DNA of 64,000 bases. It comes from Pontederia crassipes. Its lineage: Eukaryota; Streptophyta; Magnoliopsida; Commelinales; Pontederiaceae. Positions within the stretch are counted from its first letter, which is position 1. Every line of letters starts with the position of its first letter. Where the stretch lies: positions 23,502,874 to 23,566,873 of the forward strand of contig CM060195.1 in NCBI GenBank assembly GCA_030549335.1, in the 5' to 3' direction. A program made the translations under genes and the position numbers. The notes under the pieces were generated by a model. The model was not told the DNA's origin. It saw nothing but the letters and a program-made list of their open reading frames with translations, and did not search any database. Positions 26,601 to 59,600 of the stretch are shown here, piece after piece.

Positions 26601-29600
26601 ATACAGAACATTATTTTACATGTGCTCCAAGATAAACGTCACTTCAGCTAAATCAAGTCTTACCAATGATGCTTGAAGTAGTCCTGTGACAATGCGATCT
26701 CTAAGCGGGTCAACAATAACATCACAAAGCTCATTTAGAACCTGCAAACAACTCAAAATATTGAATCCAATAAGGTTCCAGCATACAACATACAGTTGGC
26801 TTTTTATGTAATTATGATGTAACCTCTTTTGACCATTACTAAATCTGGATGTCTACCAAACTGATAATCATCCTTTCCATTCTCAAAATTAAGGCTCCAG
26901 AATTAATTAATACAACTTTGAAGACAACACTGAAAATCTAAAACTCATCTTGATATATGAAGAGCTTAATAAATAAGTTTAAATTTTGATCACATAAAGA
27001 TTGAAATACCAGAGCTTTCACCAGTCGTACTGTGCAAAAGACATACAAAAATTGAAAAACATAAAAAAGAAACTGGAAGAAAGAATGATAGAAGAAGAGA
27101 AGAAAAGAAAAACTCAAACGTAGATATCTTCACAGCTATATATATACATGGATGACAACTACAACTTTTGGTTGTCATCTTTCTTTCTCTTCAAAAATAA
27201 AAAAAAAGCTAGATAAAAATTGGAAGCGAATTCTGCATGTCTTTTAGGAGAGCGGAGATATCCCCAATCATAATCACTTCTAAACCTAAGTGATTGCGCT
27301 CCTCCTCTCTCTGTGATGTGGGCAACTTAGCAGCAAAGCAATGAGGTGATATTTCAGAATGGTAGATGCTACAATGAGAGCATCCTGGCTCATGCTTATT
27401 CCATGGTTGGCGAATGATCTGCTGGCTAACTGCCTATATATTCTGTAACCAGTATTTTTCTATATCAAACAATAAATGGATTGGATTGGATTGTTAATCA
27501 TTCTCTTTCCCATCCCAAAAAAAAATGGAATTGAGTTATATGGAGGTGTAAACCCAAAAGAAGTTTATATATGCCAATTCATGATTGGTTCAACACCTAA
27601 AGGTAGATGATCATTTAAATTATTTGATGATGTCATTATGGCACAGTCATATAAAATTACTTTACTTTTTAAATTAAAATCCACCATCATAGCTTAATCC
27701 AATTGTAGGTCTGGATGTGTAAATTTTTTATGGGTTTACGCATACATTTTTGTAATTGGAATCATACTTTTGTTACTAGATCCAAGCAAATTTCATGGAA
27801 ACATTTACTTTCCTCATCTATATAATTTATCATGCATGGCCAGAGAAGGAATAGTTTACCACATCAAGGCTTTCGACAAGTGGTTCCAACCGAGCTTGAG
27901 ATGCACTGTGCTTGTACAAATCATCAATGAATGGTTGCCTCAGATCCCAAAATATGATTTTTATTCCTGAAGAATCCATAAAGAGTATGTTAGTTATCTC
28001 AGAAAAAAAAACTATGGGCTTGAGAAACAACAGGAATTCTTACCTGCAAACTCACATAACCTATCGATAGCTGCATTCATATCTTTTCTGCTTCCGTCGA
28101 ATGCATTCATTTGATTTGTGTCAAATCTTCTAGATTTCTCACTCATTGATCGTCCTAGAAATATAGCACGAGAAATTCCCTCAAAAAAGGTATAGCAGAA
28201 AAGATTATGACTTGGTAAAAACATTACATAAAAAAATATATACTAACATCTGAACAACATAGAATGAGATACACCACAATCAATGTTTCCACTATAATTT
28301 TCAAGTACATTTTTTTAGAGGAATTTTCAAGTACATAGAAAGTTAAAAGCTCTTGGATGATGTTGTCATGTAAAAGAAAATGCAGAACCGTAAGAACAAG
28401 TATGGAGATCTTACTGATGGCGAAGTTGTCATTCTTCTTGCTTTTCCATCGAGCTTGAATGCTGTCTTCCAATTTAATTAACTGAGAAATAGCATACTGC
28501 AAGCGTAGTGGAGTCTTCTAAGTAACACATCTTCACAGTTAAATGTAAATTATAACAAATATATTTTTACTCTTGAGTACATGGATATGTCCATCTCAAT
28601 ATATGTATTATATGTTACTTGACCTTTTCACACCGATGATGGTAATGTCAAGATGAAAAGTGATAGGCATGAGGAATTCACAAAGAATCCAAATTTTCCA
28701 GGCACGTGGCAAACAATTGACCGGTCCCAGCCGAACTCCGCCTATATTTTATAGCCGGTCCCAAGCCCGGATAAAGGAGGAGGGTTGTGTTAGGCCCCGA
28801 CAGCCAACATAAAATCATGTCGAATCTTATGAACATGGATCAACGAATATATTGTGTTAATGCTAGGTCGTTACCCGTAAATAACGCGCTGTACAGCTCG
28901 GGTACAGTGATAAGAGAGCAAGAGCCGCTGCATCCTCGCCTGAATGCAGTGTTAAATGAGCAAGGGCTACCGCACTCTAATGGACGGAGGCGGTTAAAGA
29001 AGCTAGTTCATGAGACTAAGGTCAGATTAGGTTCTTGGAACATTGGGACGTTGAATGGGAAGCGCCTCGAGGTGGCACAAGTAATGGACCAGCGTAAGAT
29101 TAGTATCTTATGCTTGCAAGAAACTAGATGGGTAGGAGAGGGAAGTAAAGAGATTAGGTTAAATGGTTCCAAACTTTGGTACACAGGTAAGATAAATGGA
29201 AGGAATGGTGTTGGTATTATCGCGGATGCAGAATGGAGGAAGAATGTTGTGGAAGTTAAAAGGATTGAGGATCGAATCATATCCGTGAAAGTAATTGTTG
29301 GAAAGGAGACTATGAACATTATTAGTGCATATGCACCCCAAGTAGGAGCAGAATCACATCTCAAGGAGAAGTTTTGGGCAGATATGGAGGGTTTGATTGA
29401 AAGTATACCAACAACCGAGAAAGTTTATATTGGGGGAGACCTTAATGGACATGTTGGTAAAGAGGCAGGACCACATGCAAAGGTTCATGGTGGTTTTGGT
29501 TTTGGGGAGTTGAATGAGGAAGGACAAACTATTATTGATTTTTCTTTAGCATACGACCTTAAGATTATCAACACTTGTTTTAGGAAGAGAGAGGAACATT

Positions 29601-32600
29601 TAATCACATACAAAAGTGGAACTCATAGGTCTCAAATCGATTTTTTCTTGATAAGAAATACTGATAAAAGACGTTGCACTAATTGCAAAGTAATTCCTGG
29701 GCATGGGGTGACTACACAACATAGATTGTTAGTTCTTGATATGCAAATAAAATGTATAAAACCAAAATCCCGAACAGTTTTTGATCGAAAGATCAAGTGG
29801 TGGCAGTTAAAGGGGGAGAAGCGAGAGACTTTTAGAAGTAAGTTATTAGAGGAAAGTGTGTGGGAGTTAGAAGGAGATGCTAGTATCATGTGGAAGAATG
29901 TGACAAAAAATGTTGAAATGGTTGCTAAAGCCATTTTAGGAGAATCAAAAGGTTTTGGACCACGAGATAAGGAGACTTGGTGGTGGAATGAGGAGGTCCA
30001 AGAAAAGGTGCGTAATAAGAAGAATTGTTTCAAGGCGATACACTTGGACAATAGTTCTGACAATTGGGAAAAGTATCGTTTGGCGAAAAGGGAGGCTAAG
30101 AAGGCAGTTAGTGATGCTCGTGCTAAAGCATACGAGGGGTTTTATAAGGAGTTAGGGACAAAGGCGGGTGAACAAAGGATTTACAAGATTGCAAGGAACA
30201 AAGAGAAGGAGTCGAGAGATTTGGATCAAGTAAGATGCATAAAAAATGAAGTTGGCAAGGTTTTAGTTACTGAAGGAGATATTAAGAACAGATGGGAAGA
30301 GTATTTCTATAAGCTATTTAATGATGGATGTGAAGGTTCGCGTTGTGATTTGGAGGACTTGACAGTTAGCGAATGTGAGCTTAATAGGTCATTTTATCGT
30401 AGAATTAGAGTCTCGGAGGTTAGCGAAGCTCTTAAGAAAATGGAGAATGGTAAAGCCGTTGGACCGGATGGTATACCGATTGAAGTTTGGAAATGTTTAG
30501 GAGAAAAAGGTGTGTTGTGGTTATGTAAACTATTTAATGAGATTTTACGGTCGAAAAAAATGCCTGATGATTGGAGATTAAGTACATTAGTTCCTATTTA
30601 CAAAAATAAAGGGGATATTCAGAATTGTGCAAATTATAGAGGGATTAAACTTATGAGTCACACTATGAAATTATGGGAAAAAGTGATTGAGCATAGATTG
30701 AGAATGGAGACTAGTATTTCTGAGAGACAATTTGGGTTCATGCCAGGAAGATCCACTACAGAGGCGATTTATTTACTAAGGGGGATGATGGAGAAGTATC
30801 GAAGTAGGAGAAGAGACTTACATATGGCTTTCATTGACTTAGAGAAGGCGTATGATCGGGTACCAAGGGATATACTTTGGAAAGCCTTGCAAAAGAAGAG
30901 GGTGAATGTTGCCTACATTAAGGTAATACAAGATATGTACGATGGGGCATTGACTAGGGTTAGGACACCCGGAGGTGAGACAAATGAATTTCCTATAGGA
31001 ATTGGCCTACATCAAGGATCAGCTTTAAGCCCGTATCTATTTAACTTAGTTATCGATGCTATAACCGAGAGTATCACAGAGGAGGTACCTAAGTGCATGC
31101 TATTTGCGGATGATATAGTACTTTTAGCGGATTCAAGAGAAGAGATTAATACAAAATTGGAAATATGGAGAAATACGTTGGAGTCAAAGGGTTTTCGTTT
31201 AAGTAGGAATAAAACAGAATATATGCATAGCAATTTCACAAATAAACAACTTAGAGACGATTTGAAAGTTAGGTTAGGGGAGGATATAATTCCTCAAGTG
31301 ACAAAGTTTAAATATTTAGGATCAATTGTAAGACAAGATGGTGAGATTGATGACGATGTTAATCATAGAATTCAAGCTGGTTGGTGTAAGTGGAGGAAAG
31401 CCACTGGAGTTCTTTGTGATAGAAAAGTACCCAATAAAGTTAAAGGAAAATTCTATCGTACTGCTATAAGGCCAGCAGTGTTATATGGTAGTGAATGTTG
31501 GGCTATGAAGGGACAACATGAACGTAAAGTGGGGGTAGCCGAAATGAGGATGTTGAGATGGATGTGTGGTCATACAAGATTAGATAAGATTAGGAATGAC
31601 CATATACGTGAACGAGTCGGAGTGGCTCCTATTAGTGAGAAAATGGTAGAGAATCGTTTGAGATGGTTTGGTCATGTTCAGAGAAGACCATTAGATGCGC
31701 CAGTAAGAAGAGTAGATCAAATAATCTGGAGTCCGATTAAAAGAGGGAGAGGGAGGCCAAGGCGGACACTTGGCGAACTAATAGAGCAAGATCTATTGGT
31801 GAATAATATACCGAAAGGTTTGGTTACTAATAGAGTGGAATGACGTCGTATGATCCATGTAGCCGACCCCACCTAGTGGGATAAGGCTTTGTTGTTGTTG
31901 TTGTTGTTGTTGTGGCAAACAATTGACCAAGGACATAACATCTTAATAAACTAAAGATCCAGGATCAAATAAGCTACATTACACAAGGGCCCTGACCTTA
32001 CGATCATGTTATGCATGGGCTTACTAATATCATCAAGCTTATAAAAGTCCAACATCTTGATTTAATCTAGTGGGATGAGAGTAACATGACTGAAATGTTC
32101 AAGCCATTATTTCGAGAGATGCTCAAGGCATGAATGGGTCTTTTGAAAGATGAGCATTTTGAAGATCTTCTGACCTCATCTCCAGAATGACTAAAATCAA
32201 ATTGTAGGAAGCAAGAAGAAAGAAACCATTATTAATAATGGAGCATCATAATGGACATCTTTTTTTATGAGACAAATGATGATAACAAGTTTTAGGTAGT
32301 CAACTATTTTGTATTAAATGAAAGCCGTCCAATGTGTATAAAAGACAGAAAAAAGACAATAACTAGGGAATTTGAACTTCATTAGATGAATTCTCATTCT
32401 TAAACCTATCTGACAGTTAAGAACAAACTCACATGTAGAGTGTTTAGGCGCACACACAGTCGTGAAGTTGTCAATGCATTGATATTATATGATTTCTTGT
32501 CATCAGTTGTCAATCTGACTTCTGGAATTTCCTTCTTAACAAAAGATTTGATTCCAAGTTCTCTCTTGTAACGAGTGAGAGCAGGTTCAGGCGGTATCAG

Positions 32601-35600
32601 ATCCTCTTTGTTTACTGTAAAAACCACAGATCCCCATATAAGGACAGAAAACAAATATGACACTGAAAGTACTTACTTTTTTCTCGAGGAGAGTATAAGG
32701 ATACGAAAGGGAATGATAATATAGTTCTTTTATTTTGACAAAAAAGTAAATAGTTCAATCTGACAGAGATATCATTGGGCTTTAACCAGAACATGTGTGC
32801 TGAATTTTTGGGCTGCTATTCCTGTTTTTACTTCCTTTGTAATATGGTTGCTGGGTTTCTTCTTATCCTTCTGCTTTAATCTTCTGTAATATCTCAACAA
32901 TATTAATGAAACTCTGGATAACCACCATCTTGCTGGTTGTCCTTTCCCGTTTCAAAAAACATGATATCTACTAACATATGATTATAGCGAGCCTGGTAAG
33001 CATCATTTTTCCACTAGACTGATGGGGCAAACACATGGTTTCTGGATATGGCATTGTTTGAGTTGTTAAATGTCTCCAACTAAACTTGATGAGCTCAACG
33101 AAGTTGAAATAACTTGCCACTTCGACTTGAACTTTGGCTTCCCTGTGTTAAATGGGTGCCCGGATGTTCCAGCAATCAATTGAGTGCATGTCATCCAATA
33201 GAATGCATGACCTCTTTCTGTGTATATATAGACAATTAGGGAACTGAAACAAATGGTGGTAAAGAGAGCTATACTGACACAACATATATGAACGACTAAT
33301 CCAGTCCTATTCATCCTTTTCCCGTTAAGAGGTTATGTGATTTTATAGATGGAAGAAATAACTATTTGTTCTGAGAATTAATCTTCTAAAAAAGTCAAAA
33401 AATTGGAAGGTAAACTGATATGAACATTGGCTGTCCAATAGAGAACACGACAAAATGACACAAGGATGTAGATCCAATGAAACAGTACAACTAATGAACA
33501 GGCAGTACCATCAGGTGGAACCTGATTCTATCACAGCAAAAGCATTATTTCAACTAAAATAAGCTATGTATCAACCCATCTAAACCTTACTGATATTAAG
33601 CAAGATCTTCCACATCTACCCTAGGCAGCCTCTTCTGCTATCTCAAATAAAGGAGTTTCTCTTCTTCTTTAGAATTTGATTGTGTTTTTTTAGAGGATAA
33701 ATTTTATTCTGTTCTGTTTTATTTTGAGAGTAAACATTCGTGTTTCAAGTTACTATTTCCCTCAATCATGTTGGAGAGAAGTTGATCTCCCTCTCGCCAT
33801 GGAAACCAAACAGGGGAAGCTGAAATGGCCATCCCTCAGGTCTTTCTTTTTGCTTCTTCTAATTCCGTTCATTTGCTGTTTTGAAAATCATCTCCTTTGA
33901 TAACACACCCATGCCAGTGATAATGTCACTCCAATCCTCACTGATTACCAAGTAAAATTTGCACTTTTACATGATATAGAGGATGCTGATCAATGCTCAA
34001 GTACAGACCCCTCAAAACATGTTCAAGCACAAAATAATGAGTTAAATGTGATGAAATTCTGTGGGAAACAATAATAATATGCTTACCTAGCTTTTCAGTA
34101 ACGCTTTGAGCATAAACTTGAAATGTATTATCAAGCCCACGACAAAGGCTATTCATTTCACCAACTGTCATTGGCACTTTCAGAGCGAAAAATTGATCAA
34201 CAGTCTGCATTACATGATCAGCTGATAGTGGCTCAAATGTAATAATGCTGACAACAATATAAAATGCATTTGCATCTCTAATTATTGGCACACATGAAGG
34301 AAAAACGCCAGCCTGTTGTTTTTACCTTTTGAAGCTTTAGCTTTGCTCTAAATGTGCACTTATGAAAGTGCCACACCAAAAAAAAAAAGGTTTTCAGGTA
34401 AAAATTTTGATAGGCCAAAAATTGTTCAAAAATAACAGATGCAGACCTTCTCAAGCTAATCTACTATTCTCTTACCCTTCCTTTTGTGTATTTAGCTTAA
34501 CAATAAATGAAATAACAAATATGTTGACAAGAGATAAAAGTACATATTCCTCGAGTCCCCATGAAGAAGTATAATTTTTCAAAACTAATATCAGTGCAAT
34601 ACATCCTGAAAAGAAATGAGGATCTATGCATCTCTCTGCCATAAGCTGTTTGGTCAAGATAATCAATAAGTTATAAAAAAATTATCTTAGTGGACAAAAT
34701 GAGAAACTGAGTTCTCGAACTTGGTGGATGAAGTATGGGGGACATTCTTGGATTGCTCCATAATTCAGTGGTCGATACGGATGGTAGGAAATATCTTACT
34801 TTGACATTTCTTTATGTTGAATTTGTGTGCAAAGAAACGATAGATCATTAAGGGGAATATCTTGAATTAAACCACAGAGCAACTTCATCATTCAAACACA
34901 CATAAATCACAATTACAGCTGAAAGAACAAGTTGATTAAGGAACAAACCTCTTCAATGATCCTATAGACCTCAATGATGGAATTTCCATGACGGATCTGA
35001 GGTGATATAGGCTCCCACGTCTACAAAAGAGGATTCCTTAAACCACTTAGCATATGGAATGTGAAACAGATATTTTGCCATGAACCACAGTTCTCATGTG
35101 ATGTGCAATTAAACACCACTAGCCAATGCAAACCCGTAAAGGTACTTATACAAATTGTTCAAGCTACATGTAAAATAATCCTAGTAATAAAAAGATAAAA
35201 AGTAGAATGCTACAATGGAAAGCAAAAACCGCATGCTCACAGGAAAAAGAACAGCAATGCCCATAAAGAACAAGATCAAGAACCCCTGAATGCATTTCGA
35301 ACAAACTACATACTAATAATGCCTTGAATCCTACCCCAACTGGAAACCATCTAGACCCAAGACACTCCGAAGTAAAAGGCTTCCTTGCACTATGTGTTAA
35401 TAATGCCTTGAATCCTGAATTGATTTATTTCCTTATAACGAGATAGGTGTCCTAATTTTGAGGGATCAATTTAGAGTCCCAATCGGTATGAAATTCTACA
35501 TCGGCTTAAATTTCTCGGTTTTTTCTTTGGTGTGTAATAACTCATACAGAAATCCTAACACTACGACTGAAGAATTTAACATCTTAAATGAAAAGGATAC

Positions 35601-38600
35601 CAAAAAAAGTAAGAAAACATTTGCAGCCCATAACAATTAAAGCATAACAAAAAGTACCCATAATTGAAGCTGTAAAACTCATGAAAACTGATTAGTTGTC
35701 ACATCATAGTCAAGATAACTGCTAGTCACAATAACAAAATGTCGGCCCATTTAGATGATCATTTTCATAAAGTATAGACCTTACCTCTTGTTGAATGGCC
35801 CTCTTAACCCATCGTATAATTCTGTCAAGCTGTGAATTCACCCAACGTAAAACCAAAGTACTGGATATCTTTTCAACCTAGAAGGGAAGACAATAGCAAA
35901 CAGATTGAAATACTGTGCAGGAAATTTTCTTAAAGAATGATATAGCAAAAACATTGAACACTAATTTATTTGGAATTTCCTTTGGAAAGAAATATTATTT
36001 GGAATTAAATAAACCTTTCCATACCAATCAACAAAAATAACCCATTAATAACCATGGAACATTGATATCTGTAATACTACATGTATTTTACCCCTTAAAT
36101 CACATATTAGAGAAGCATTTTTTTTAGCAGAAAAAGGATGACTACCAAAGTTGTGGTTGTCATCCAGCAATGTATATAAAAGTATGGGGAAATGTACAGG
36201 TGTGAGCTCTCGAAGAAGGCAGCAAAAGGTGACCAAGGTCACAATAGAAAAAACTAGCCAAAACCCTACTCTCTAATAAGAAATGAGATGTGGTACACAA
36301 CACGCTCAAGCTGACATCGCTCTCCACAAAAAATAATCCGGTTGCGCTGAAGCCAAATGGCCCAGGCACCGGCCAAAAAGGTCATCAACGGCGCTCGCCA
36401 ACTTTGTCTCAAACGCAACATGCTCCGAAAGATCTGCCACATGGACTCTGGATCTGACAGAAAAATGGTCGCAATGGTAGTCTGATGCCATATGCCCCGA
36501 GATGTGGGGCAATCGAAAAAGAGGTGAGTGATGTCCTCGGCTGACTCGCTGCAAAAGACGCATGAAGTGTCACTGTGTGGTGCCCAACGCGCCCTATAGG
36601 TCCTGGTAAGAAGCCGTCCGCGCCGTAAAAGCCAAGCAAAGATCTTGAGTTTAAGCCGTACCCGAGTACGCCAGAGGAGTCTACAATCCGTCCTGAAATC
36701 CTCTAGTAGCGTAAGGGTGGGAAGAAAGCGAATGTAGAGACTACACACTGAGAACAACTCTGATAGCCAAACCCATCCATCTGACCTAGATTGGTCCGGG
36801 GGTATCCCGACCAATCGCTGGTGAAGGGCCAGTAAGTCTGTGGAGCGCTGATTTGACAAATGTGCTCTAAAATGTGGAGACCAAGCACCAGAGCCCGACC
36901 CCCCCCTCCCCCCATGGACCAGGTGTCCGCAACCGTCGCCTTAGGGAAAGTCGAGAGGGCCTAAAGTCGGGGAAAAACCTCTGCCATAGGGCCACTAGCT
37001 ATCAAGGCATGCCGCCAGAAGGAGAAATCCGTCCCCGAGTCAAGGGATGGAACCATAAGGGTGCGGACCCGCGACGCCATGGCCGCTACACTACGCTACA
37101 TTGGATAGGGCGATCGATCTAAAGTCCTCAACATGCTCTGCCAGGGTGAGCTTCAGGAGCAGGAACAACAAGAATCGGTTGAGGCACTCAAAGCACCAAT
37201 TCCTATCAGTGAACTCCCGAATCACTGCGACAACATCTCCCATCAATGGCCAAAACTCCCTATAGAAAAAGACGAGAAGACTATCAGGGCCATGGACTGC
37301 CTCACTATTGAGGTCCTGAAGAGCCTCAAAAATCTCATCCTCCGTGATCGTCTGTATCAGTAATGATGACTGTGTGTCGCTAAGTGAGGAATGTCACCAA
37401 GAGCCCACCGCCAAGGGCTCAACGGCTGCCACCGAGATGTGGAGCGGAAGTAAGAAGTGATGGACTCCCCAATGTGCTGACGGTCAGTGATCCGTTGCCC
37501 CTGTATCACGAGCTGCTCAATCATGTTAGCCCTCCGACAAGAGCTAGCATATGTGGAAAAACCTAGTGTTGGCATCCCCCTCCTGGAGTCAGATCTGTCG
37601 GCATCGCTGCCTCCACTGGGTTTCCACTATCATGTCCTCCATCTAAATCATCTCCTGTGCGCGTTTGCGCTCATCCATCTCAGAGTCTATGAGATGACGG
37701 GAATCCTCCGTGCAGTCCATCCGAGCTATGACCCCTAGGGCGTCCATCCTACGACGAGCTCGATCCTCCCTGATCCGCCGATGGTGCTGACAGAGGAAGG
37801 AGTGCAAGCTGGACAGGCGTGTCACCAATGTCCTGGCTGCGGAATCCGAGGGCGCCACCCTACGCCACTGGTCTTCACTAACTGTCGAAACCCGTCCTCC
37901 AAAAGCCATGAAAGCTCAAAGTGGAAAAGTGAGGGCAGTGTCTCATCGTCGTTGGACCTCCATAAGAGGGGGGTGTGGTCTGAGAACAGACGAACAAGAG
38001 CCTGAACATCCGCCAGCCGGTGGGCCTCCGCGAGCTCAAGAGAGCCAAGAAAACAGTCGATCCTTGATCTGGCAGTCAGTGCAGTTGTGCTCCTCCATCT
38101 GAATCTACAATTGGTGGCCGGGAAGTCAACTAAGGACTGTGAGTCAATGAAATCACGAAACTCCTCCGCACCCCGGTCCCTCCCACGACGTCTGACTGGC
38201 TAGTCCTCCATGTCGAGGGTGACATTGAAGTCGCCTCCAATCAGCCACTGAGCATCGGGAAGGTGGGCGCGTGCCTCTCGAAGCTCCTCCCACAACGTAC
38301 TACGCAGGGATGCCGAACAGGGTCCGTAAACGTAGGAGATAAGGTAGTCGATGCCATCCCCTGGCCTCAGCAGATGGGCCGTCACCGAGAAACGGGCTGT
38401 CCAAGAGTCAACTACTGACAAAAGATCAGCAACCACCTCACTGCCCCACAGCATGCAAAGAGAGATGCCCCCAATCTGAGCCCAAATCCCTAGGCTGCAA
38501 TCTGTCAACTTGGTCTCCTGTAGAAGGGCCACGTCCACGTCCCACTCTCGAAGGTAGCGGCCCAAAGTCCACCGTCTCCCAGGGTCACCTAGCCCCCGTA

Positions 38601-41600
38601 CATTCCAAGTAAGGACCTTCATCGGAACTGCATTGTTCCCCTGACTGAGTGGACCTCCAACCACCTCTGACCGAAGGCGGGCCCAACGGCGTGTATGTCG
38701 CAACCCGGCCGTGCCAGCCACGAGGCAAACATCCTCATCATCATAACCGGGCAGGAGTGAACATTCTGCTGATGTAAAAGTCGCTGCTGGGCATGGGGTG
38801 CCCACGGGGGGCAGCGACGCAAATCGACAACGGTGACCCCGATCATGGGTATCCGACATAAGGGCCTCGTGCGTATCTGCTTGTGAGTCCAATGTCCCTA
38901 GTCTCAACAGTAGTGGCGGAGGGTAGTCCAGCAGCAAGTGTGGCGGTGGCGAACTCGAGGTGGCCGTGGTGCGCCTTCGCCTACGGCGGTAGTGGTGAGT
39001 AGCCGTGGCGGATGAGAGAGGCAGTCATGATGACGACGGGGAGGGCGGGATGGTGTCTGATCTCCTGGAGGATGTCGGCGACCATCGGAAGCATTTATGC
39101 TTCAAAGACTACCTTTATACATTTATTTCATTTCTACATGAACTATTTCTTCCAATTGGTGATACTTTGGCAAATAAAAGTCGGAAGTGAAAACTAAGGC
39201 AACATGGGTTAGTATCCTTTTTCAGTCATCCTTTTACCCTAAAAAGAATATACACAAGAATTGTCTTGCCATTTATACATCCATTACATCTCAGGCTTTT
39301 GGATCTTGTAGATACATTCTGGGACTTTTTCTCATGACACCCTCAGCAGAACAGACAACGGGCAGCTCCTTTAGTAGATGATAGCTGAAATGTACCTTCT
39401 GAAAAGATACCTTCAGGGGAAGGCATGGCACATGTCTGGAGGAGAGAAAGTTATGTAAAATCTATGATCCAACTTTGTTGGTGGGTGGCAGGTGGATGGG
39501 GAACGTCTTTTACAATCAGAGATCCACTTTTGGGGTAAAATGAGCCAACACAAATGAAGAAAGCAAAGGAGGCCAAGAGGCTTTAAAGCTGGACTCCTAC
39601 GATTGGTTTTCTGATCTTTTATGGGGTTTCATTTGAAGGACTGTAACATGCATGCTTAGATGAATTTAGTGATGCTGGATTTGATGTTATTTGGATTTTA
39701 ATGGGTAGACTTCAATTTCTATAGTTGGGTGTACCTAGAATTGATCTTATTACCAGATTTTCAAGAACCTGGTGCTTTATGAATCAGTTTGTTTAGTTCT
39801 CATTTTATGGACCATGATTTCTTTTCTTTTCTCTCTTTTTTTTTTTTTGAGAAATATGGGCCATGATTTCTCTTGTACCATTCTCTACATTATGTCAAAT
39901 TACTTATTAAATGTTGACTGAGAAATAGTGATTCCTATTTCCTAAGCAGATTTTTGTTTTTCTTCTTTTTTTCTTTTGGAGAGAGGAAGGGTGACTACAG
40001 AGTGTGGTACACATTCACTTGTAATTAACTGAAAAGGAGAAATGCACAAGTCTGTATCAGAGCACTGGTAAAAAAGATGAGTGGTCGCTTGAGATTGAAT
40101 TTACTTGGGTGTGTAGCTAAGAGATTAACACCCTTTTAACATGCTCTAGTGCGCTGCGAGGATATGGGCAATTTACGAAGGTTCTTTCAAAGGTAGACTT
40201 CTGCAAGCACTAGACTGAGAGATCCCGTTATCAAATAACCTGCAATGAGCTGAGAAGATGTGTTTGGAGGTTTTTTAAGGACTGAACAAGGAACACCCTA
40301 TTGCTAGAGGAGTTTGGGGATTCTCCAGGGTCCATTGGACATATTTGAACCAATGTAATGAGGATACTTTCAATAGGATGAAACAGAATCTTCATCCAAC
40401 CAAGTGTAGCTTAGCTAGATGTCGGTACATTTTCAAGTCCAATACCTTATCCCTGTTCATTTGTTCTCTATAATCCGATGGCTAGAGTAATTCCATGGTC
40501 AACCCCCTGTTCTGATATTCACTTCTTCTTCTTCTTCTTCTTCTTCTATTTTTGAGGAAATTTTGGAATTAATTTCTTATTGTCTATCAAAACATTTTTC
40601 ATCTCCTAGTTCATTTACAGATTCTATCTTATTCATGAGTATTGTAAATATGATTTGACCAGCTCAAAGATATAAGTTAATGCAATCTTAAGGAAATCCA
40701 AATGACAACTATCTGTTGTGCAATGCCATCTAAGACAGAAGATAAATCCATTTGTCGTGATTTTTTTTTCAAATGAAGGAAGCAATTAGAAAATAGATAA
40801 AAAAATATAGCCTACAACTGATGGATCCCCATTGTTATTTTTCTTAAGCCTTCGTCTGATGGATCCATCTTTTTGTTTAGGAGGATGCGGACTAAAATCT
40901 TGGAAAGTGACTTCCAGAGTGTTTTAACTTCGATAAATATTAGCTTTGGAGGTTCCAACTCAAACTAATGCCAACAAAAAAGAATCATAAGTAGAAAAAA
41001 GAGAAGAACATCAAAAGGTTCTAACCTGATATAGAGATAACCTTTTTTTGCAATGAATATCTAAGCCATCCTCTCCCACTGCAGAAGCAATGACTGACAT
41101 AATATATTGCTCAAGACTTTCAGCTGCTGGAAAGACGGATACCACATCTTCTGTAAGATGTTCAGCATGATCAAGAAATGGTTTCTGAAAAAAGAAATGA
41201 TATTTTTATATCTTTCCGAGTGATATAATATTAAACAGCATTGAATCATTAACTAATAGATCCATATATTAGAATAAGTGGATCTCTACTTACCAACTTT
41301 GCCCCATAAAATTTGTGTAGCAAAGAAGCGGAAACAACTGCTGCTTGTGGGTTCCATTGTGATAAAATTGGTACAAAAATGGTTGTCTCTTTCTTCAGAA
41401 GTTTCTTCATCTCTTCAGCAAGACATGCCAAAACATGTTCATGCCGTGTATCTGCCTTCAATTCAGTAGCATGTGTAACCTGTTGATAACGAAATAACAT
41501 GAGATTTATTATCTAACGTCAAAAGAATATCAAATAGAGGCAGCAAAACTGAAAAGCTAATGCTTCTCCAACAACCCATAAGAAAAAACATATGAAAATT

Positions 41601-50600: not shown

Positions 50601-53600
50601 TATAGTTAGAAAATAAGAAAAGCCTAGTACAATTTTCCACACAAACCCTACCTTTATGACTATGAAACCAGATGATGGGAACAAAATCACAATTCTGCCC
50701 CTCGAAAAAAAACATCACACTTCCCACTCTAATAAAAAATGAATGTGATGTACAATAGCCTTCATGGCTTATGGATCATTTTGTTCACGTAACACGATCA
50801 ATATTGCTGGCGAATACAAAAACAAGCCTAGAGCCCAAACCAATTTTAACAAAAGAAAAATCTTACCCTTGCGAAAGCACTTTTAATCGAAGAAGAAATG
50901 TATGCCTCAACTTGCACCCCATCAATAGAATCCATCACCTGTATGAAAAGAACTAGTCAATCTGGATATTGCACAAACAACAACAACAAAGCCTTATCCC
51001 ACTAGGTGGGGTCGGCTACATGGATCAACAAAGCCTTATCCCAAAAAAACTGATTTATCCCAATAAATTGTCTTGAAGTGTATAAAATAATTTTCTAACT
51101 GTATTTCTTTTCATAAAATAGCTCTTTCACTCCTAATTTAACAAAGGGCATTGTGTACCAAAGTGGATAGATGGAGACGAGAAAGTCAACAAAATACCAA
51201 ATCAATTACGTGTTGTTTGTTTAGGGGAAAAGGATGACTAGAGAAGGTTAGTCATCCAAGTATACATATATATATGGACTTCCAAATTGTACATATGAAA
51301 CCAAATCAATTATTACTATGAAAAAGGAAATTTAGAGGATAAAAAATGCACAACAAAGACTGTCATTTCTGAATATGGAAGTAGCATAAAATACCAAGCT
51401 AACAAAGGTTTCAAAGATTTATAGGGATTAAACATAGCTTGAAGATATAACATGTATATAGTTTACAAAGATCTTGGCGTACAAAGAGTAGCATTAAAAA
51501 GGGATGGGCATACCAAATTGTAGTTTCATAAACTGCTCATGCAAATTTTTTTAGGGACATCAGGATTCAACAATCGAACAATGTTTGAGGGCGAAAGATG
51601 CTGCAATGAAGCTCCATTGTGCATGGCATGCTCTCCTTCTCCATGCCGAAAGGATTAAAAGAGAGCTTGACATGATTGATGCCTAGCTCATACACCTCGC
51701 CGAACACACAATTATAGAACAGATGCTGAATATCCTCCTCTTCAACACCACATAGACCACAAGAAACGTAAACATGTCTTAACACAATGACCCTGTCTCC
51801 GGCGAACCCCGCCGGCGGCTCCACCTTCCCCGCCTCCGGCAGTCCCTGCCGGCGGCGCCACTCCACGCGGACGGCTCCTAGCGTCCGCCTCCACCATGCA
51901 CCGTAGAGAGGTGCGCTCCCTTGATGGCTGGACCACCGTCGCACGCACGAGTGATACCCGCGGCCGGCGCCAACCATCGCCTCACTGTTTCAGGTGCCTC
52001 GCAGCAGGTCACCTTGCGCGTTTCTGCTCCGGCCCGCTGCGCTGTCTCCGGTGCAAGGGTGAAGGTCACCAGAGGTCCGCCTGCCCCCGTGCAGTGCCAG
52101 ACCTATCACCTCGCCGCGCAACTCCCCTTCAACTGCGCCCCCACCAGCTGTCAACCTCTCCATCCCCTGGTCACCTGAGATCCAGCGCGGCGTGGACCTA
52201 CTCAACGGATGCATCATCGGCGAGGTTACCGACGCCTCTCCGGACCTGACGGTGCTTCGCTCGGCCGTCGTCGCTAGCGTGGGCGTGTCACCGCCATTCC
52301 ACCTGTCTCGAGTATCGCCGGGGCTTTGGCTTCTCATCCCGGGATCAGAGCAGCAGCGTGACGCCCTCCTAGCCTCCCCGACCAACATCCCGCAGCGCTC
52401 CCAGGTCAGGTGGCGACACTGGAAGGCCGACGACGGAGCAACGATGACACTGCCTGGAGTCCGTCGGTCTTTTGACATTCTCGGTTTGCCATTGCACCTC
52501 CAGCGACCGGAGATTGCACTGGCAGTGGCAAGACTCATCGGCAACCCTGTTGCGGTCGCTCTCCCTGTGCTCGGGTCGCCGGACCTGTCGATCTCCTCTG
52601 TCGAAGTCGAAGTTCCCCCTGGTCGTCCGTTGCCGACGGCAGTTGTTCTCAGAGTGGGCGCCGGCAGTTTCCTTCTCCACCTGCAGCCTTCCCAGCGCTG
52701 TGCTTCGTGGGCGGAGGTGGTCGCCGGTGGGAGAGCCTCGCCGGCCCAGTCGTTGCTGGCGTCAGCGAGCAGGGCGGAGCAGTCTGCTGCAGCTGGCGAT
52801 GCAGGCGACGTACAGTGCGTGTCGAGCAGGCGTAGGAGCAGTACGCGGACTTCCCGCAACCAGGATCCGAAACCCCCAGCTCAGACCCGATATCCCCCAT
52901 CTCAGACCCGAAACGCCCAAGCCACGACCCGCCTCTCAATCCTAACCCGATACCAGACACCACCCTCCTCCACCCAACCCACTGTACCCAACCGCCTTCG
53001 TGCCCGGTCCGAGCCGCCGATCCGGGATCCTAACCCAGATCGGTCGGCCTCCTCCCCCTCTGAACTCGCCCCCTCCTCCGGCCAGCCGCCACACATTCTC
53101 CGGCGATCAGCCACCGCTGCCTCATCCCCACCCCCTTCACGACCATCGCACACCACTAACCAACCCTCAACACCACCTCTTTCGCCCCACACCCGATGCC
53201 CCTCGCCTGTACTCGCCGCCAATGCTGACTGCAACATGGTCGCCGGCGAAGCTTTCGCCGCCACCCCCCGCCACTATCAGCGCCGGCGACACAACCCTGC
53301 CGCCACGCCCCCGCCAACACAGGAACAGCCGCCGCCTGCGCAGGGCTCGACTGATGCCTCTGCAGCGGAGGAGCCGCTCATGGTCGAGCCTACCCCGCCG
53401 CCAGCTTCTGCTCAGCCTCCGATGACTGGCGTCACTGCAGCGGAGGAGCCGCTACTGGTCGGGCCTGCCTCGCCGATGTCCGGGGTGCTGGTCTCGCCGG
53501 CAGGGGCCACTGCAACAGAGGAGCCTCTACTTGCTGGTAGGATGGAAGATGACATTTTGGAGGTGGCAGCAGCTGCAGGCCTGAGGCATTCACGACGGCG

Positions 53601-56600
53601 GTCATGCCCACGACCTGAGCTGGATCGTGGGGTGGCTCTTCACTTGCCTCTGCGGTCATCGCGGGGGGACCACAGGAGAGGCCTGACGTTGCACTGTGAC
53701 TCAGGCATCCTGGAGGGCGAAGCAGTAGTGGTTCCATGAAGATCCTCACATGGAATGTGCGGGACCTGGGCGACCCCGGAAAGCATCGGACCTTGGGTCG
53801 TTACCTCATGGAGTGGGAGGCCGACGTTGCCCTTCTACAGGAGACCAAGCTGACTAATTGTAGCACAGGGATTTGGGCCCAGATCGGGGGGCCCCGCATG
53901 TCCGAGCACCTCTCTCTCCATGCGGTGGGCCAGTCGGGAGGCTGCATCATCGGATGGTGGGCTGAACTTTTCTCTCTTGAGGAGTCCTGGACGGCCAAAT
54001 TCTCGTTTACCGCTCACTTACGGACCCGGGCAGCGAGTGGTGACTACCTCTTTACATGTGTTTATGGCCCCTGCTCGGCATCTTTACGCAGCGCCCTATG
54101 GGAGGAGCTCCGGATGGCACGCTCCCATCTCCCGGACGCTCGGTGGCTCATCGGAGGCGATTTCAATGTCACCTTGGACATGGATGATCGCCCCATTCGA
54201 CGACAGGGGAGAGATACCGGAGCAGAGGATTTCAGAGACTTCATTGACTCGCAGTCGTTGGTCGATTTTTCGACCTCCAACTGTAGGTTTACATGGAGGA
54301 GCACAGCGAGGCCGACCGCCAGATCACAGATTGATCGTTTCCTTGGATCACTGGAGCTAGCAGAGGCACATCAGATGGCTACGTGCAGGCCTTAGACCGA
54401 CCGTTCTCGGATCACCCCCCCCCCTCATGTGGCGGTCTAATGACGGTCGGGTGCAGCGCTAACTCTTCCGCTTTGAGCGCTCTTGGTTGTTGGAGGAGGG
54501 CTTCCGTCAGCTGGTGACGGAGCACTGGCAGAGTGTGGCGGCATCTGACTCCGCAGCTAGGACGCTAGCATCTCGCCTTGATAGCTTGCGTTCCTTCCTC
54601 TGTCAGCACAGACGCCAGATCCAGGAGGACAGGTCACGGCGTAGGGTGGATGCCTTAGCGGTGATTGCTCAGATGGATCGCTTGGAGGACTCTCGCCACC
54701 TCACCGATGCGGAGGTCGCCGAGCGCAAACGCGCTCAGGATACCATCCAACTGGAGGACCGGATAGTGGAGACCCAGTGGAGGCAGCGCTCCCGGCAAAC
54801 CTGGCTTCAGGAAGGAGATGCCAACACTCGATTTTTCCACTTGTACGCGAGCTCTCGCCGGAGGGCGAACAGGATCGAGCGGATTGAGGTGCAAGGCCAG
54901 CGTGTCTCCGGTCACCACAGCATCGGGACGGCCATTACCTCCTACTTTCGGGCGTCCACTCGGCGGCAGACACCGAGCCCTTGGCGTTGGGCCCCAGGGG
55001 ACATCCCCGCCTTTCTGATGCTCAGTCTTCTTTGTTGATGCAGGCCATTACTGAGGCGAGATTACTGAGGACCTTCGGGACCTCAATAGCGAGGCTGCTC
55101 CGGGCCCTGATGGCTTCCCAGTTTTCTTCTACTGGGACTTTTGGCCGGTGGTGCATGAGGATGTCTTGGCTGTCATCCAAGAGTTTACCTGTGGGAATAG
55201 GGGCTTTGACCGCCTCAACAGGTTCCTTTTATTCCTACTTCCGAAGCGCACCCCGGCGGAGAGAGTGGAGGACTTTCGACCGATTGCCTTATCCAATGCC
55301 ATCTACCTCTTGGTGGCCCGGGTATTGACGAACCGGCTTCGAGAGGTACTTCCGGAGCTGATCCATCCGGCGCAGTCAGCTTTCATCCAGGGCCGTTCCA
55401 TCACCAATAGCTACACCATCGCCTCTGAGATCATTGCACAGTGGAGGACTACTTGCTGTGCTTTTCTATGGAAGGTTGACTTCTCCAGAGCATATGACAC
55501 TGTCTCATGGCCTTTTCTTTGGCATTCTCTACAGGTTAGAGGCTTTCTGGAGACTTGGATTTCTTGGATGAAGCGTTGCATCTCTACCGCTTCATTCTCA
55601 GTCCTAGTCAATGGCGCGAGGTCGGGTGACTGGGTGCAGCCGCAGAGGGGGGTTCGACAGGGCTGCCCCCTAGCTCCCATGATTTTCGCCCTAGCTGTCG
55701 ACGCGCTCACCAGATGCACCCAGGCGTCTTGTTCGGCTGGCCTCTTCCGCGGCTTCGCCGGGGGCCTGGTTCCTCTCCTACAGTACGCCGATGACACATT
55801 ATTTTTCATCAAGGGCTCTGAGCAAGAGGCTCGACGTGTAGCCATCCTTGTGGAGCTTTTTGGCATGACAACTGGACTTCAGATCAACCATGCCAAGTCC
55901 TCTTTCATTCCTTTTGGCATGGTTCCCGAGGAGGCTGCACGATGTGCGGCTGAGCTTCACACGCCGACTAGTTCCCTACCGATCGCCTATTTGGGCCTCC
56001 CACTTTCTGACTGGCATATCGGCTCCCAGGGTTGGACCCCAGTCATCGAGCGCATGGAGCAAAGACTCCAGGGTTGGAGCTCGCATCTCTTGTCCAGTGG
56101 AGGCAGGCTCATCCTCCTCCGCTCAGTCCTCTCGGCACTTCCGACATATTACATGACGGTCCTTCGGGCACCTGCTCAGATTCTTCGCCGCATGGATTCT
56201 TTGAGGAGCAGATTCTTTTGGCAGGGTGGTGGTTCTGATCGCCGAGGTGTTCACCTTGTCGCATGGAGTAGCGTTTGCCGTCCCACCTCCCAGGGAGGAT
56301 TGGGGGTTCGCGATCTTCGCTATACAAACTGGACTCTCCTAGCCCGGTGGGTGAGGCGGATCATGGGGCCAGAGGATGGTCTATGGCAGGCGGTCTTCTT
56401 CACTTGCTACGGACATGACTTATCATGGGAGTCGAGGACTATTTTGCCTCGCGGGGCCTCATCTTTCTGGCGGGGAGTCTGATTCCGAGGATCCAGCCTC
56501 TCATGACCTCCACATTAGGCTCCGGGTTGGATTTCTCCTTCTGGCGTCATGGCTGGCTCCCCCGAGACTCACTCGCCGTGGCTTCCCCCGCCTTTATGCC

Positions 56601-59600
56601 TTGGCGGCACAGCCCGACGCGACAGTGGCAGAGTCCTGGTCTGAGGATGGGGGCCCTGGATCTTGGACGCCTCTCTTCAGATCAGCCCTCTCGGACTAGC
56701 GTTTTACCGACCTCTTGGCTCTTCACCAGCGGATTGCCTCTTACCGCCCTGTCCACTCCAGACATGACGGCTGGATATGACTTTCGGAGTCTTGGTCAAC
56801 ACGTAGCATCTACATTCGCTTTCTCCCCAACATGGGGGCATCGGAGGACTTCAGGATGGATTGCAGGCTTATCTGGCGCTCCAGGATACCGTTGAAAGTC
56901 AAGATCTTTGCTTGGCTCATGCGGTATGGCAGACTTCTCACCAGCAGGTACAGGGCGAGATGGGCGCCTCATACCGACACGTCTTGTGTTTTGTGCGGCG
57001 ACGCTGAGGAGGATATCGCCCACCTATTTTTTGCATGCCCGACAGCTCGTGACATCTGGCGGCGGACGACTTTTGGGGGTCTTCTCCCCCCCGATTCAGA
57101 GACCTTGCGGCAGTCGTTTCGGGGTTTGGCCCGTCGGAGATATTCGTGGAGAGCACCTTTGGCGTCTTTTTTGGCCGGCTCTTGGGCTATCTGGCTCCGG
57201 CGCAACCAAGTGATTTTTTGTGGGGAGCGATGTCACATTGAGCGGATTGTACACCACATTTCCTTTCTTCGGGAGTGGGGTTTTGGTTAGGAGGGATACT
57301 TTTCCACTTTTTGTCGCTCCTTAGTTGGAGCTCACTTTTATACATGTTTCTCTTTACATAGTTATATACATACCTGGATGACAACCAGATGGTTGGTCAT
57401 CCTTTTTCTCCTCAAAAAAAAAAAAAAGATGCTACAATGAGAATATAGTGAACCACATAATTTTTTGGTTAGACACTCGTTTAAGGGTAGGAGTATGTTT
57501 CCTCTTTTTTGTTTTGGCACTCTTTTTTTTGGTGCCCGAACATGTACAATTATAGCTTTTGATTCAATACAAGTTGAAGGCTACTAAATTGGGTATCCAT
57601 CCTTCCCTGTTTCAAAAAATATAAAAGGATGGCCTTCCTGTGAAATTGAAATAATCTTGTAACTGAAGATAAATGTAGGTGCAGACCTGCTCATTTTCTT
57701 CAAGCAAAATTCTTCGTGTAAGTAATGCAATAGTGAGCATTTCTTCCATCATTGTTGAGCCCTGCAAAATTGTATATGTGCTCTATATAAAAAGTAAAAT
57801 AAATGAAACTCGAAGAACTAATTTTTTTCTAAAGAAAGCACAAAGATAGGCAACAATTCAGCAAAGAAGATATGTTCAAACTAAACTAAGGCATGTGTAC
57901 ATAAGTATGCTTACATGAATGAATATATATAAAATACATAATTAGTAAGAATAAGACAATCTCTCCATGAATGTAAGTTCAACACATTAAAGACGAACAA
58001 AGCATGATCCAAATTTCATGATAGCGTAAGAGATTTATAATCCTAATCAATGATTTGCTCAAAATTTACAGTTCAAAAAAGCAAGTATTGATCCATGACA
58101 ATAATGCCTTTCCAAATCAACCAATGACATGTCATGAAAAGTTCATGACTTTTGGAATGTAAAATTGAGCAGCAACATAAAACATCAAAGCATGATAAAC
58201 ATCTCTCTTTCTTCTCGAAAAAAATAAATAAATAAACACATGAATCTCTCAAGAAAGAACATATGATAACTCAAATTAAAAGGTTACATCTAGATTGTTT
58301 TCAGAAGGAGGTTACATCTAGATCCTAATAGCATCTCCTTTCATTACAAATTGACAAGAAATTGTCTTTGTCGATTCCATGTAATGCCTAGATGTATTAA
58401 CCTTAGGCCTTCCTCGAAATTATCCAACACATTTCATATAAAACTAGAAGTTCACTCAAGCATGGAAATACTAGCAACCAGTTCTTTTATACAGGTCAAA
58501 CAATTTGATAGAAAAAGAAACTTGTTAGAAGATGGCAGGCTTCTTTCATAGCTAAAAAGTTTCACTACATAACTAAGCCCAATCCACAACACTAGTAAAA
58601 TTGATTGCCTCTGAAAAACTAATTAAAATAACCACAAGTACATATAGGCAAATCTTTCCAGAGTTGTCAAACTTTCAAGTACTAAAATTGCATTTATTTT
58701 CAGTAAACTCATTAACTATAGATTCTTCCTCGCCATCAACAGCAAAATAGGATCTAAGTCTACTCTGCCCATATGTTCTTATGAAACTCAAGAAAAAGTA
58801 TTCTTTCTTGCAGCAAAAACAGCAAGTTTCATACTGCCATTTGAAATAACATGACAGATGCAAGAGCCTTTTTCATTTCTTGGATTGAAATATATAATAA
58901 GACTACATTCTCTAAAGCTAATAGTCATGTGCTTTTTCATAAACTTAAATGTCTAGAATGAGAACCCAGTCCAATCAAAAAACTGGAACAAAAGATAACT
59001 ACAAAGTCCTAATATTTCATTTATCATTATATTCAGACTCAGTTTTCTTAGGAAACCTAGTCATACCAGTATTGAACCTAAAACTTTTCCAGCTTGTTGG
59101 TCTTTTCTGTTTTTTTATTTTACACATCCCCACCTTGAGAAATTACCATTAGAACTTTGGTTTAACAAATTTACAAATGATAATATCAACAATGTGCACA
59201 AAGAGATGAGCATTTGCAAACTTAGGTCTCCATAGCATGAATAGTCAGATGACAAAAAACTTAAGTAGTCAATGGCCAAAAAGCTGATAAAACCTATGCC
59301 AACTAATAATAAAAAGAGTTAAACCTCTGGAAAATGCAAATGGTAATCTCCAAGCTTTTTATCAGCCCATCCCTGGATTGGTGACAAGAAAGATTGGAAG
59401 AATGTGAAATCTTCACCATCAACAGAGGAACAGAGGCTTTTCAAGTGCAACCTTTCTTGTGGACCCCGCTGCTCTTTCAGAGGTATTTTCCTCAAATGGT
59501 GAATAACATATTGCAAGATCCCCTGTTCACCTGTAATGACAAACTAATTTTGAAGAGAACAAAGGTTAGGAAGTCAAATAGCTTAAACAAAGAATATAAC

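Follow-up and report, generated by a model that had tools for sequence, protein, structure and literature searches.

RTE-clade LINEs of plants carry a single ORF, measure ~3.2 kb, and end in a short microsatellite-like tail. SIDEs, which keep both ends of one non-LTR element and have lost its ORF, have been described as rare derivatives of LINEs, with examples in R2, CR1, and trypanosome elements (PMC3414825, PMC6740152). In the passages on Drosophila, R2 SIDEs and R2/R1 hybrid SIDEs carry an HDV-like ribozyme and are site-specific, and five SIDEs are traced to four origins, with DNA recombination favoured by the authors (PMC3414825). Persaeus, a CR1-derived SIDE of Lepidoptera, is described in the corresponding passages as having at least four origins and a 5-bp direct repeat bordering its break (PMC6740152). 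A twister ribozyme at RTE 5′ ends is mentioned in a 2020 review as 'in preparation', without data in that passage (PMC7761336). SIDEs from RTE elements or from plants were not found in the literature that we searched.

The family described here resembles the R2 SIDEs in having a 5′ ribozyme, here a predicted one, fused to a non-LTR 3′ end, an arrangement held to be mobilized in trans in the relevant part of PMC3414825, but the predicted ribozyme is a twister, and the family has many young junctions and a fixed 5′ break. Persaeus is likewise a high-copy, internally deleted LINE with a variable 5′ break point, yet it belongs to CR1 and the passages on it in PMC6740152 describe no ribozyme, whereas microhomology in the present family is at most in weak excess. 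As in the passage of PMC7761336 on RTE twisters, a predicted truncated twister (type P1, RF03160) lies at a LINE 5′ end, with a presumed role in 5′ processing; unlike in that passage, the predicted cut matches most best-matching 5′ ends and SIDEs carry the motif.

The window, the whole stretch of 64,000 nucleotides that was analysed, contains on its plus strand an element at 28723-31911, a private 5′ extension included, antisense to its host gene (e-coordinates are window positions minus 28722). It is flanked by the only two sites of the 17-mer GTGGCAAACAATTGACC in the window, at 28706..28722 and 31912..31928, which bears out the perfect target duplication reported in the initial annotation; the first G of GTGGCAAACAATTGACC may equally be part of the tail, which leaves a length of 16 or 17 bp for the duplication. 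One frame is open to 31843, for 1,018 codons from a GTG at 28787 and for 1,008 from the first ATG (28817..31843, plus strand). The first ATG is absent from SIDE copies of the older haplotype, which makes the in-frame ATG at 28835 (AACATGG; e113) the likelier start. The frame encodes an APE-type endonuclease domain (Exo_endo_phos, 29030..29665, Pfam E 1.9e-7) followed by a reverse transcriptase domain (RVT_1, 30611..31327, Pfam E 1.6e-37) with its FADD box at 31103, and contains QETRW, YIGGD, YAPQ, and SQIDFF, which we take to be endonuclease motifs. A TGA stop (31841..31843), a predicted 3′ hairpin (AGCC..CCCAC cta GTGGG..GGCT, 31861..31888), and a tail of the form TTTG(TTG)n (31888..31911) complete the plus-strand element. 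These features confirm the observation made in the initial annotation. Anatomy and domains together indicate an RTE-type LINE, as had been proposed: a single ORF with AP-type endonuclease then reverse transcriptase, ~3.2 kb, with a short simple-repeat tail and TSDs that vary, a minority of loci having no convincing script-found TSD. A PDB search lists L1, R2, and other reverse transcriptases. From the plant RTE clade, in which we place it by anatomy, the family differs in two respects, a predicted twister at the 5′ end and abundant production of SIDEs.

The element lies within an intron of a PATROL1-like gene, between minus-strand frames at 32409..32672, upstream in the gene (PF25761 E 1.6e-10, profile 90-167), and at 28015-28242 (E 0.017, below the cut-off, profile 191-225), so the antisense intronic position first proposed is supported. 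Of ten minus-strand frames tested, five match PF25761 (TPR_PATROL1) in order, two above the Pfam cut-off and three below it. The next exon sequence or sequences (28015..28517, minus strand) were assigned by PF25761 and by eye, with frame 28227-28517 having no PF25761 match and its exon status judged by eye.

The window element is best read as a young and almost intact copy from a plant RTE LINE family that is very abundant. It carries three private substitutions in 3,166 bp against the 35 full-length copies compared, itself among them, and on this divergence the insertion is young, in line with the recent date first suggested. Among the 40 of 2,831 candidates scored, at least 39 copies besides this one match it at 99-100% identity over about the full length and have different flanks. 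A hidden frameshift is unlikely, because the same frame is open in 28 of the 35 full-length copies, 26 with 1,013 codons and two, the window copy among them, with 1,002 (counted from the e113 ATG), and a length of 3,166 bp is common to most. The description 'intact' has to be qualified at the C-terminus: where 26 of the 35 copies read TGG and continue for 11 codons, the window copy has TGA and lacks WRRMIHVADPT. The suggestion that it may be a source element found no support among these copies. The closest of the 34 others differs at 11 positions, none of the 34 shares a private substitution, and no offspring was detected. An isolated recent insertion, possibly a source and otherwise unremarkable, agrees with the youth, open frame, and perfect TSD of the element, but we consider it very improbable: this is one among thousands of copies, shorter at its C-terminus than 26 of 35 and with no offspring among the 34, and 'otherwise unremarkable' is refuted by the family counts and SIDEs set out below.

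The family 5′ end was placed by 40 full-length alignment rows, including that of the window copy. Most (31) start at query base 11 or 12, and the family therefore begins at 28734 (e12), with a body at 28734..31911 on the plus strand; the start is base 7 in six rows and bases 16 and 19 in two more, and the window copy alone reaches base 1. Of the six base-7 starters, five were read, and all five carry a 5′ repeat that stops at e11. Preceding the family 5′ end is the private 11-nt extension GGTCCCAGCCG (28723..28733, plus strand); none of the 39 other full-length rows covers query 1-6. The type-P1 twister match (Rfam RF03160, 28729..28788, plus strand) scores 56.7 bits (E 2.4e-11, covariance model), below the gathering score of 67.2, while twisters of sister copies reach 69.1 bits and 12 of 62 scored places exceed the gathering score (68,074 first-look candidates). 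The motif occurs in 20 of 20 loci scanned and in none of 14 control genomes. We placed the predicted scissile bond at 28733|28734 using the U-A-A of the Rfam alignment and the cleavage position (U-A) given in the pertinent passage of PMC6154101. The −1 base at this cut comes from the insertion flank and in the window is G instead of U. The predicted cut, just before e12, coincides with the 5′ start of most best-matching copies, and the twister may be self-cleaving. In that case the RNA should start at 28734 rather than 28723. Rfam scans of 28600-32000 (E up to 10) and of the 20 loci (E up to 0.1) list twister-P1 alone, and the 5′ part is LINE sequence, which rules out a tRNA-, 7SL-, or 5S-derived SINE.

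Genome-wide pattern counts, allowing up to 3 mismatches and with a reversed-pattern control of 0 every time, give 24,509 3′ ends and 12,244 5′ ends, against 1,389 copies of the ORF-start segment e134-183 and 4,558 of e2664-2713. The ratio of 5′ ends to ORF starts is ~9, a figure that may be too high should the ORF have diverged more quickly than the 5′ end. The initial annotation had started from the premise that plant copies are mostly 5′-truncated, which misses the main fact. Among the 62 exact 5′ ends that head the list for C1, a sample that requires 51 exact bases and is biased towards young copies, with some classed by eye, 48 are ORF-less SIDEs and 11 continue into the ORF (48:11), with two stubs and one unclassified. 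Six of the 11 were verified as full length, one with a nested SIDE; the stubs join the TTG tail directly, with no 3′ part.

These SIDEs are mini-elements of ~150-220 bp in which both ends come from the LINE and the ORF is gone: the 5′ end, likewise carrying the twister motif, runs to a sharp stop at e124-131 and resumes at a variable point near the ORF end. TSDs of at least 10 bp are kept by 21 of 28 auto-called SIDEs (a tally leaving out the AT-repeat L083 and the nested L089) and measure 13-21 bp where found, the signature of units inserted by target-primed reverse transcription. Junctions were mapped in 50 SIDEs, of which 37 with ≤6 mismatches furnish the statistics; among the 50 are L088 and L089, two sightings of a single element outside the 37, and L053-L056, picked for closely paired ends. 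A further 11 5′ matches were set aside by script (six SIDEs whose 3′ anchor was altered or missing, two stubs, one nested element twice, and one cut by the locus end), and 14 of 100 listed junction strings have no exact mapping. In 35 of the 37, taking the rightmost position, the 5′ junction falls within 28846..28853 (e124-e131), while the 3′ zone is diffuse (31809..31853, e3087-e3131; both plus strand). Splicing of the LINE RNA would remove the ORF and retain both ends, but we give it almost no credence, and it is ruled out for most junctions, which shift base by base with no GT-AG pattern: inside the deletion edge, GT follows e131 only and AG precedes only 2 of 19 listed 3′ positions.

The 37 well-mapped SIDEs have 28 distinct junctions. 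In the youngest haplotype, 15 SIDEs (13 mapped; L090 and L091 read separately) have 14, and SIDEs therefore arise repeatedly; the single shared position carries different 3′ alleles. If 20 lineages were equally common, finding all of 15 junctions distinct would have p 0.0006. These data weigh against SIDEs being ordinary propagating non-autonomous elements, in which some tens of masters would have arisen by rare internal deletion (through DNA repair or single jumps) and been multiplied through co-transcription, twister cleavage, and the LINE enzyme in trans, with junction diversity reflecting many old masters. So do the recurrence of some junctions across young, middle, and old haplotypes and the two stubs that lack a 3′ part altogether. 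Propagation nonetheless has a share in the family. Junction 125/3121 stands to 126-128/3118-20 at 8:32 in the young haplotype (exact match) and at 462:229 in an older one (up to 1 mismatch). Junction class is thus associated with haplotype (Fisher p 5e-9), so one SIDE lineage or more has expanded and some SIDEs are not of the first generation. The 462 older copies lie within 1 mismatch over 58 bases, and this multiplied class rules out a pure de novo origin of every SIDE and suggests mobilization in trans by the LINE partner. SIDEs also retain the twister and 3′ end, requirements held for R2 SIDEs in the passages of PMC3414825. As an account of the whole, however, we think propagation unlikely.

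We give an even chance to a mechanism in which the RNA is trimmed by the twister and the reverse transcriptase, having begun at the 3′ end, often moves over to a separate 5′ RNA piece. The twister would cleave LINE RNA immediately before e12, leaving a trimmed 5′ end. The ORF protein would then insert the element at staggered nicks; its target-primed reverse transcription would begin on the TTG tail and 3′ hairpin. Many events that regain a 5′ end would skip the ORF: ~0-100 nt of 3′ sequence would be copied first, and the cDNA would then continue on a 5′ piece ending at e124-131, through to e12, yielding a twister-capped SIDE with no ORF. The step we favour is a template jump by the reverse transcriptase onto a held or protected 5′ fragment, whose end might lie at the border of a ribosome positioned on the e113 AUG, which is 11-18 nt upstream of the stop, or might be set by protein protection of the 5′ domain. 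Shuffled sequences fold as well as the 5′ region tested (MFE z −0.53), which speaks against a strongly folded domain ending at e131, pseudoknots such as the twister's being outside the model; 5′-3′ RNA end pairing as a bridge is equalled by 141 of 200 shuffles. With both at chance level, no modelled RNA structure accounts for the sharp stop.

Mean microhomology is 1.16 against about 0.8 for uniform break points (p 0.03-0.05), with 4 or more bases in 6 of 37 junctions (p 0.003-0.014), a weak excess that fits a jumping enzyme. Against shuffled partners there is none (1.03 against 0.98; 5-95% 0.68-1.30), so microhomology is a minor help at most in driving junctions. Untemplated bases are common in template jumps; they were called in 0 of 37 junctions, under scoring that penalised them, which counts to that extent against a jump. 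Alternatively, the 5′ fragment (e12-e124/131) may be ligated to a 3′ fragment before insertion, by plant tRNA ligase or an RtcB-like activity. The 5′-OH end left by a twister would be a natural substrate, and ligation would also explain the tandem e12-e30/36/37 repeats on 11 of 98 5′ ends, which abut exactly A12, the predicted twister product, and which we would read as second jumps. The lack of excess against shuffled partners agrees with ligation, a recognised route to U6/L1 chimeras in the passage of PMC13174262 concerned. The weak excess over uniform break points speaks against it, a running enzyme accounts at least as well for the breadth of the 3′ zone and for stubs whose junction is within the TTG tail, and nothing in the sequences points to 2′,3′-cyclic-phosphate ends at e124-131; we regard ligation as rather improbable.

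More tentatively than the template switch itself, we propose that SIDE making is built into the insertion reaction of this plant RTE: the enzyme would hold, or the ribosome spare, e12 to ~e127, reverse transcriptase would normally cross there from the 3′ end, and LINE output would be mostly gene-less and twister-tipped. In this plant LINE, SIDEs are the commonest product among the 62 exact 5′ ends read, and a near base-sharp acceptor point can be measured thousands of times within one genome. How non-LTR enzymes regain a 5′ end and what purpose many plant twisters serve thereby become testable largely by sequence. If SIDE making is indeed built in, SIDEs would account for many orphan twisters of plant genomes, and their junctions would be a footprint, written by the genome, of an enzyme or ribosome on LINE RNA.

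We identify a plus-strand element at 28723-31911, bracketed by two copies of GTGGCAAACAATTGACC, a sequence with no further occurrence in the window. Its open frame (28787/28817 to 31843) matches Exo_endo_phos and RVT_1 in Pfam, and it terminates in a TTTG(TTG)n tail, all of which bears out the initial annotation of a young RTE LINE between target duplications. The antisense position proposed for it, intronic within a PATROL1-like gene on the minus strand, also holds: ten minus-strand frames were tested, and five give ordered matches to PF25761 (33941-34321, 32409-32672, 28015-28242, 26619-26852 and 25976-26251; two above the Pfam cut-off, three below). This gene is also the basis for assigning the DNA to a plant. 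The same gene region carries minus-strand zf-RVT and Exo_endo_phos frames at 36269-36940 and 38203-39024, remnants of a separate LINE, probably L1-type. Several long plus-strand frames at 52063-57287 resemble another LINE, with RT-like and endonuclease-like stretches judged by eye.

Comparison with full-length relatives (35 copies: 30 drawn from the 40 best matches, and five from one genome contig, C1) supports a recent insertion, as judged from sequence divergence: over 3,166 bp, the window copy has three private substitutions, and it differs from its nearest relative at 11 positions. In 26 of the 35 copies the frame runs for 1,013 codons when read from the ATG at e113 (e-numbers are window positions minus 28722); in seven it is broken earlier or lacks this ATG. 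In the remaining two, the window copy and locus L022, it ends at 1,002 codons because TGA replaces TGG at e3119-3121. The description of the copy as intact is thus correct for the catalytic domains, but its protein stops 11 residues short of the usual C-terminus. AACATGG is the better start context, making the e113 ATG a better start than the first ATG (e95), which is missing in short internally deleted elements (SIDEs) of the older haplotype. The window copy also has 11 bases ahead of the family 5' end, e12, and none of the 39 other full-length matches covers all 11. Taken alone, the window copy is a well-supported but unremarkable young LINE that has lost a little of its C-terminus.

Its relatives are distributed differently from a truncation series, where numbers should drop from 3' to 5'. 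Across the genome (1.13 Gb, 43 contigs), with patterns of 50-51 bases allowed as many as 3 mismatches and reversed-pattern controls giving 0 every time, we counted 24,509 3' ends, 4,558 matches to e2664-2713, 1,389 to the ORF start (e134-183) and 12,244 5' ends. Matches to the 5' end outnumber those to the adjoining ORF start about ninefold, a ratio that faster ORF divergence could inflate; the excess stems from SIDEs, which join the two ends of the LINE and have lost the ORF. Of the 62 exact 5' ends that come first in the C1 listing, with some classes assigned by eye, 48 are SIDEs, 11 run on into the ORF (six verified full length, five followed over 290 bases only) and two (L075, L097) are stubs of about e12-e130 joined directly to the TTG tail without other 3' sequence; L088, interrupted by a nested SIDE, was left unassigned. 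SIDEs lie within other family copies at L031 and L088/L089. Target-site duplications of their own of at least 10 bp flank 21 of 28 automatically called SIDEs and were not found at that length in five others, the AT-repeat L083 and the nested L089 being left out.

The family 5' end is a predicted twister. The Rfam type-P1 model (RF03160) scores 56.7 bits (E 2.4e-11) over 28729-28788, short of the gathering score of 67.2, and matches 20 of 20 loci scanned at 58-67.6 bits, two exceeding that score. Genome-wide, 12 of 62 scored places pass it (best 69.1 bits; 62 scored of 68,074 first-look candidates), and none of 14 control genomes gives a type-P1 match. A review (PMC6154101) describes twister cleavage at U-A, followed in env22 by another A, and regards stem P1 as dispensable for cleavage; an element starting inside P1 fits this dispensability. 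The U-A-A of the Rfam alignment would place the predicted scissile bond at e11|e12, and 31 of 40 full-length matches start at e11 or e12. Six start at e7; the five of these that were read each have a repeat ending at e11. The base preceding e12 (A 30, T 26, G 16, C 15; n=87 5' ends) is supplied by the insertion target, so predicted cleavage may depend on the flank.

Fifty SIDEs were mapped, and the junctions described here are those of the 37 that have no more than 6 mismatches, taking the rightmost position where bases were shared. The 5' break falls at e124-131 in 35 of these 37 (outliers e117 and e138), the 3' break is spread over e3087 to e3131, and 28 junctions are distinct. One short-junction class pattern has 6,404 exact matches genome-wide (control 0); the first 100 listed include 41 different strings, 86 mapping to 22 break pairs and 14 without exact mapping. 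Fifteen SIDEs from the set of 62 5' ends belong to the youngest haplotype, and they have 14 different junctions by position, and the two sharing one (L052, L081) differ in their 3' alleles. SIDEs include both TGA-type and TGG-type 3' alleles, as do full-length copies. For the 37 junctions, microhomology shows no excess over shuffled partners; it is slightly above uniform break points (mean 1.16 vs about 0.8, p 0.03-0.05), reaching at least 4 bases in 6 of 37 (p 0.003-0.014). A GT-AG pattern was absent from SIDE junctions, and base pairing between the two RNA ends shows no excess.

This diffuse donor and sharp acceptor form the pattern expected if reverse transcription, having started at the 3' end and run a variable distance, crossed onto a discrete piece of 5' RNA at that piece's 3' end. 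The AUG at e113 sits 11-18 nt upstream of e124-131, a spacing roughly that expected for a ribosome's leading edge; a ribosome there is one possible cause of a piece ending at e124-131. Protection by bound enzyme, as for R2 5' RNA, could be another. A serious rival is that two RNA pieces were ligated before insertion, favored by the 5'-OH end that twister cleavage leaves. Tandem repeats of the first 19-26 bases (e12-e30/36/37) precede e12 in 11 of 98 5' ends examined (26 nt in L008, L014, L015, L020, L022, L032 and L091; 25 nt in L053 and L087; 19 nt in L038 and L093), suggesting that another template was used or that the enzyme jumped back. At 50979-51046 (minus strand), a partial family 3' end (GGGATAAGGCTTTGTTG) is joined directly to a second 3' end that carries a TTG tail, an arrangement suggestive of the enzyme passing from one to the other.

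Some SIDEs have also multiplied by themselves. Two junctions number 8 and 32 exact copies on the young haplotype, each a small share of its 1,155 occurrences, full-length copies included, and 462 and 229 on an old haplotype with up to 1 mismatch (61 of the 229 exact; the 462 all exact among the roughly 100 matches listed). These frequencies differ between haplotypes (Fisher p 5e-9; mismatch limits are unequal, and exact counts go in the same direction), which rules out every SIDE arising anew.

The literature describes SIDEs of R2 and R1 (PMC3414825) and of CR1 (PMC6740152, citing trypanosome and mosquito SIDEs), and PMC7761336 refers, as work in preparation, to a truncated, active twister within RTE 5' ends. 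Searches on SIDEs, non-autonomous RTE elements, twisters with retrotransposons and RTE template switching returned no report of plant or RTE SIDEs, weak evidence of their absence given that subscription papers lie mostly outside their coverage. What is unusual here is the family: a plant RTE capped by a predicted twister, with thousands of ORF-less copies and a nearly fixed 5' break.
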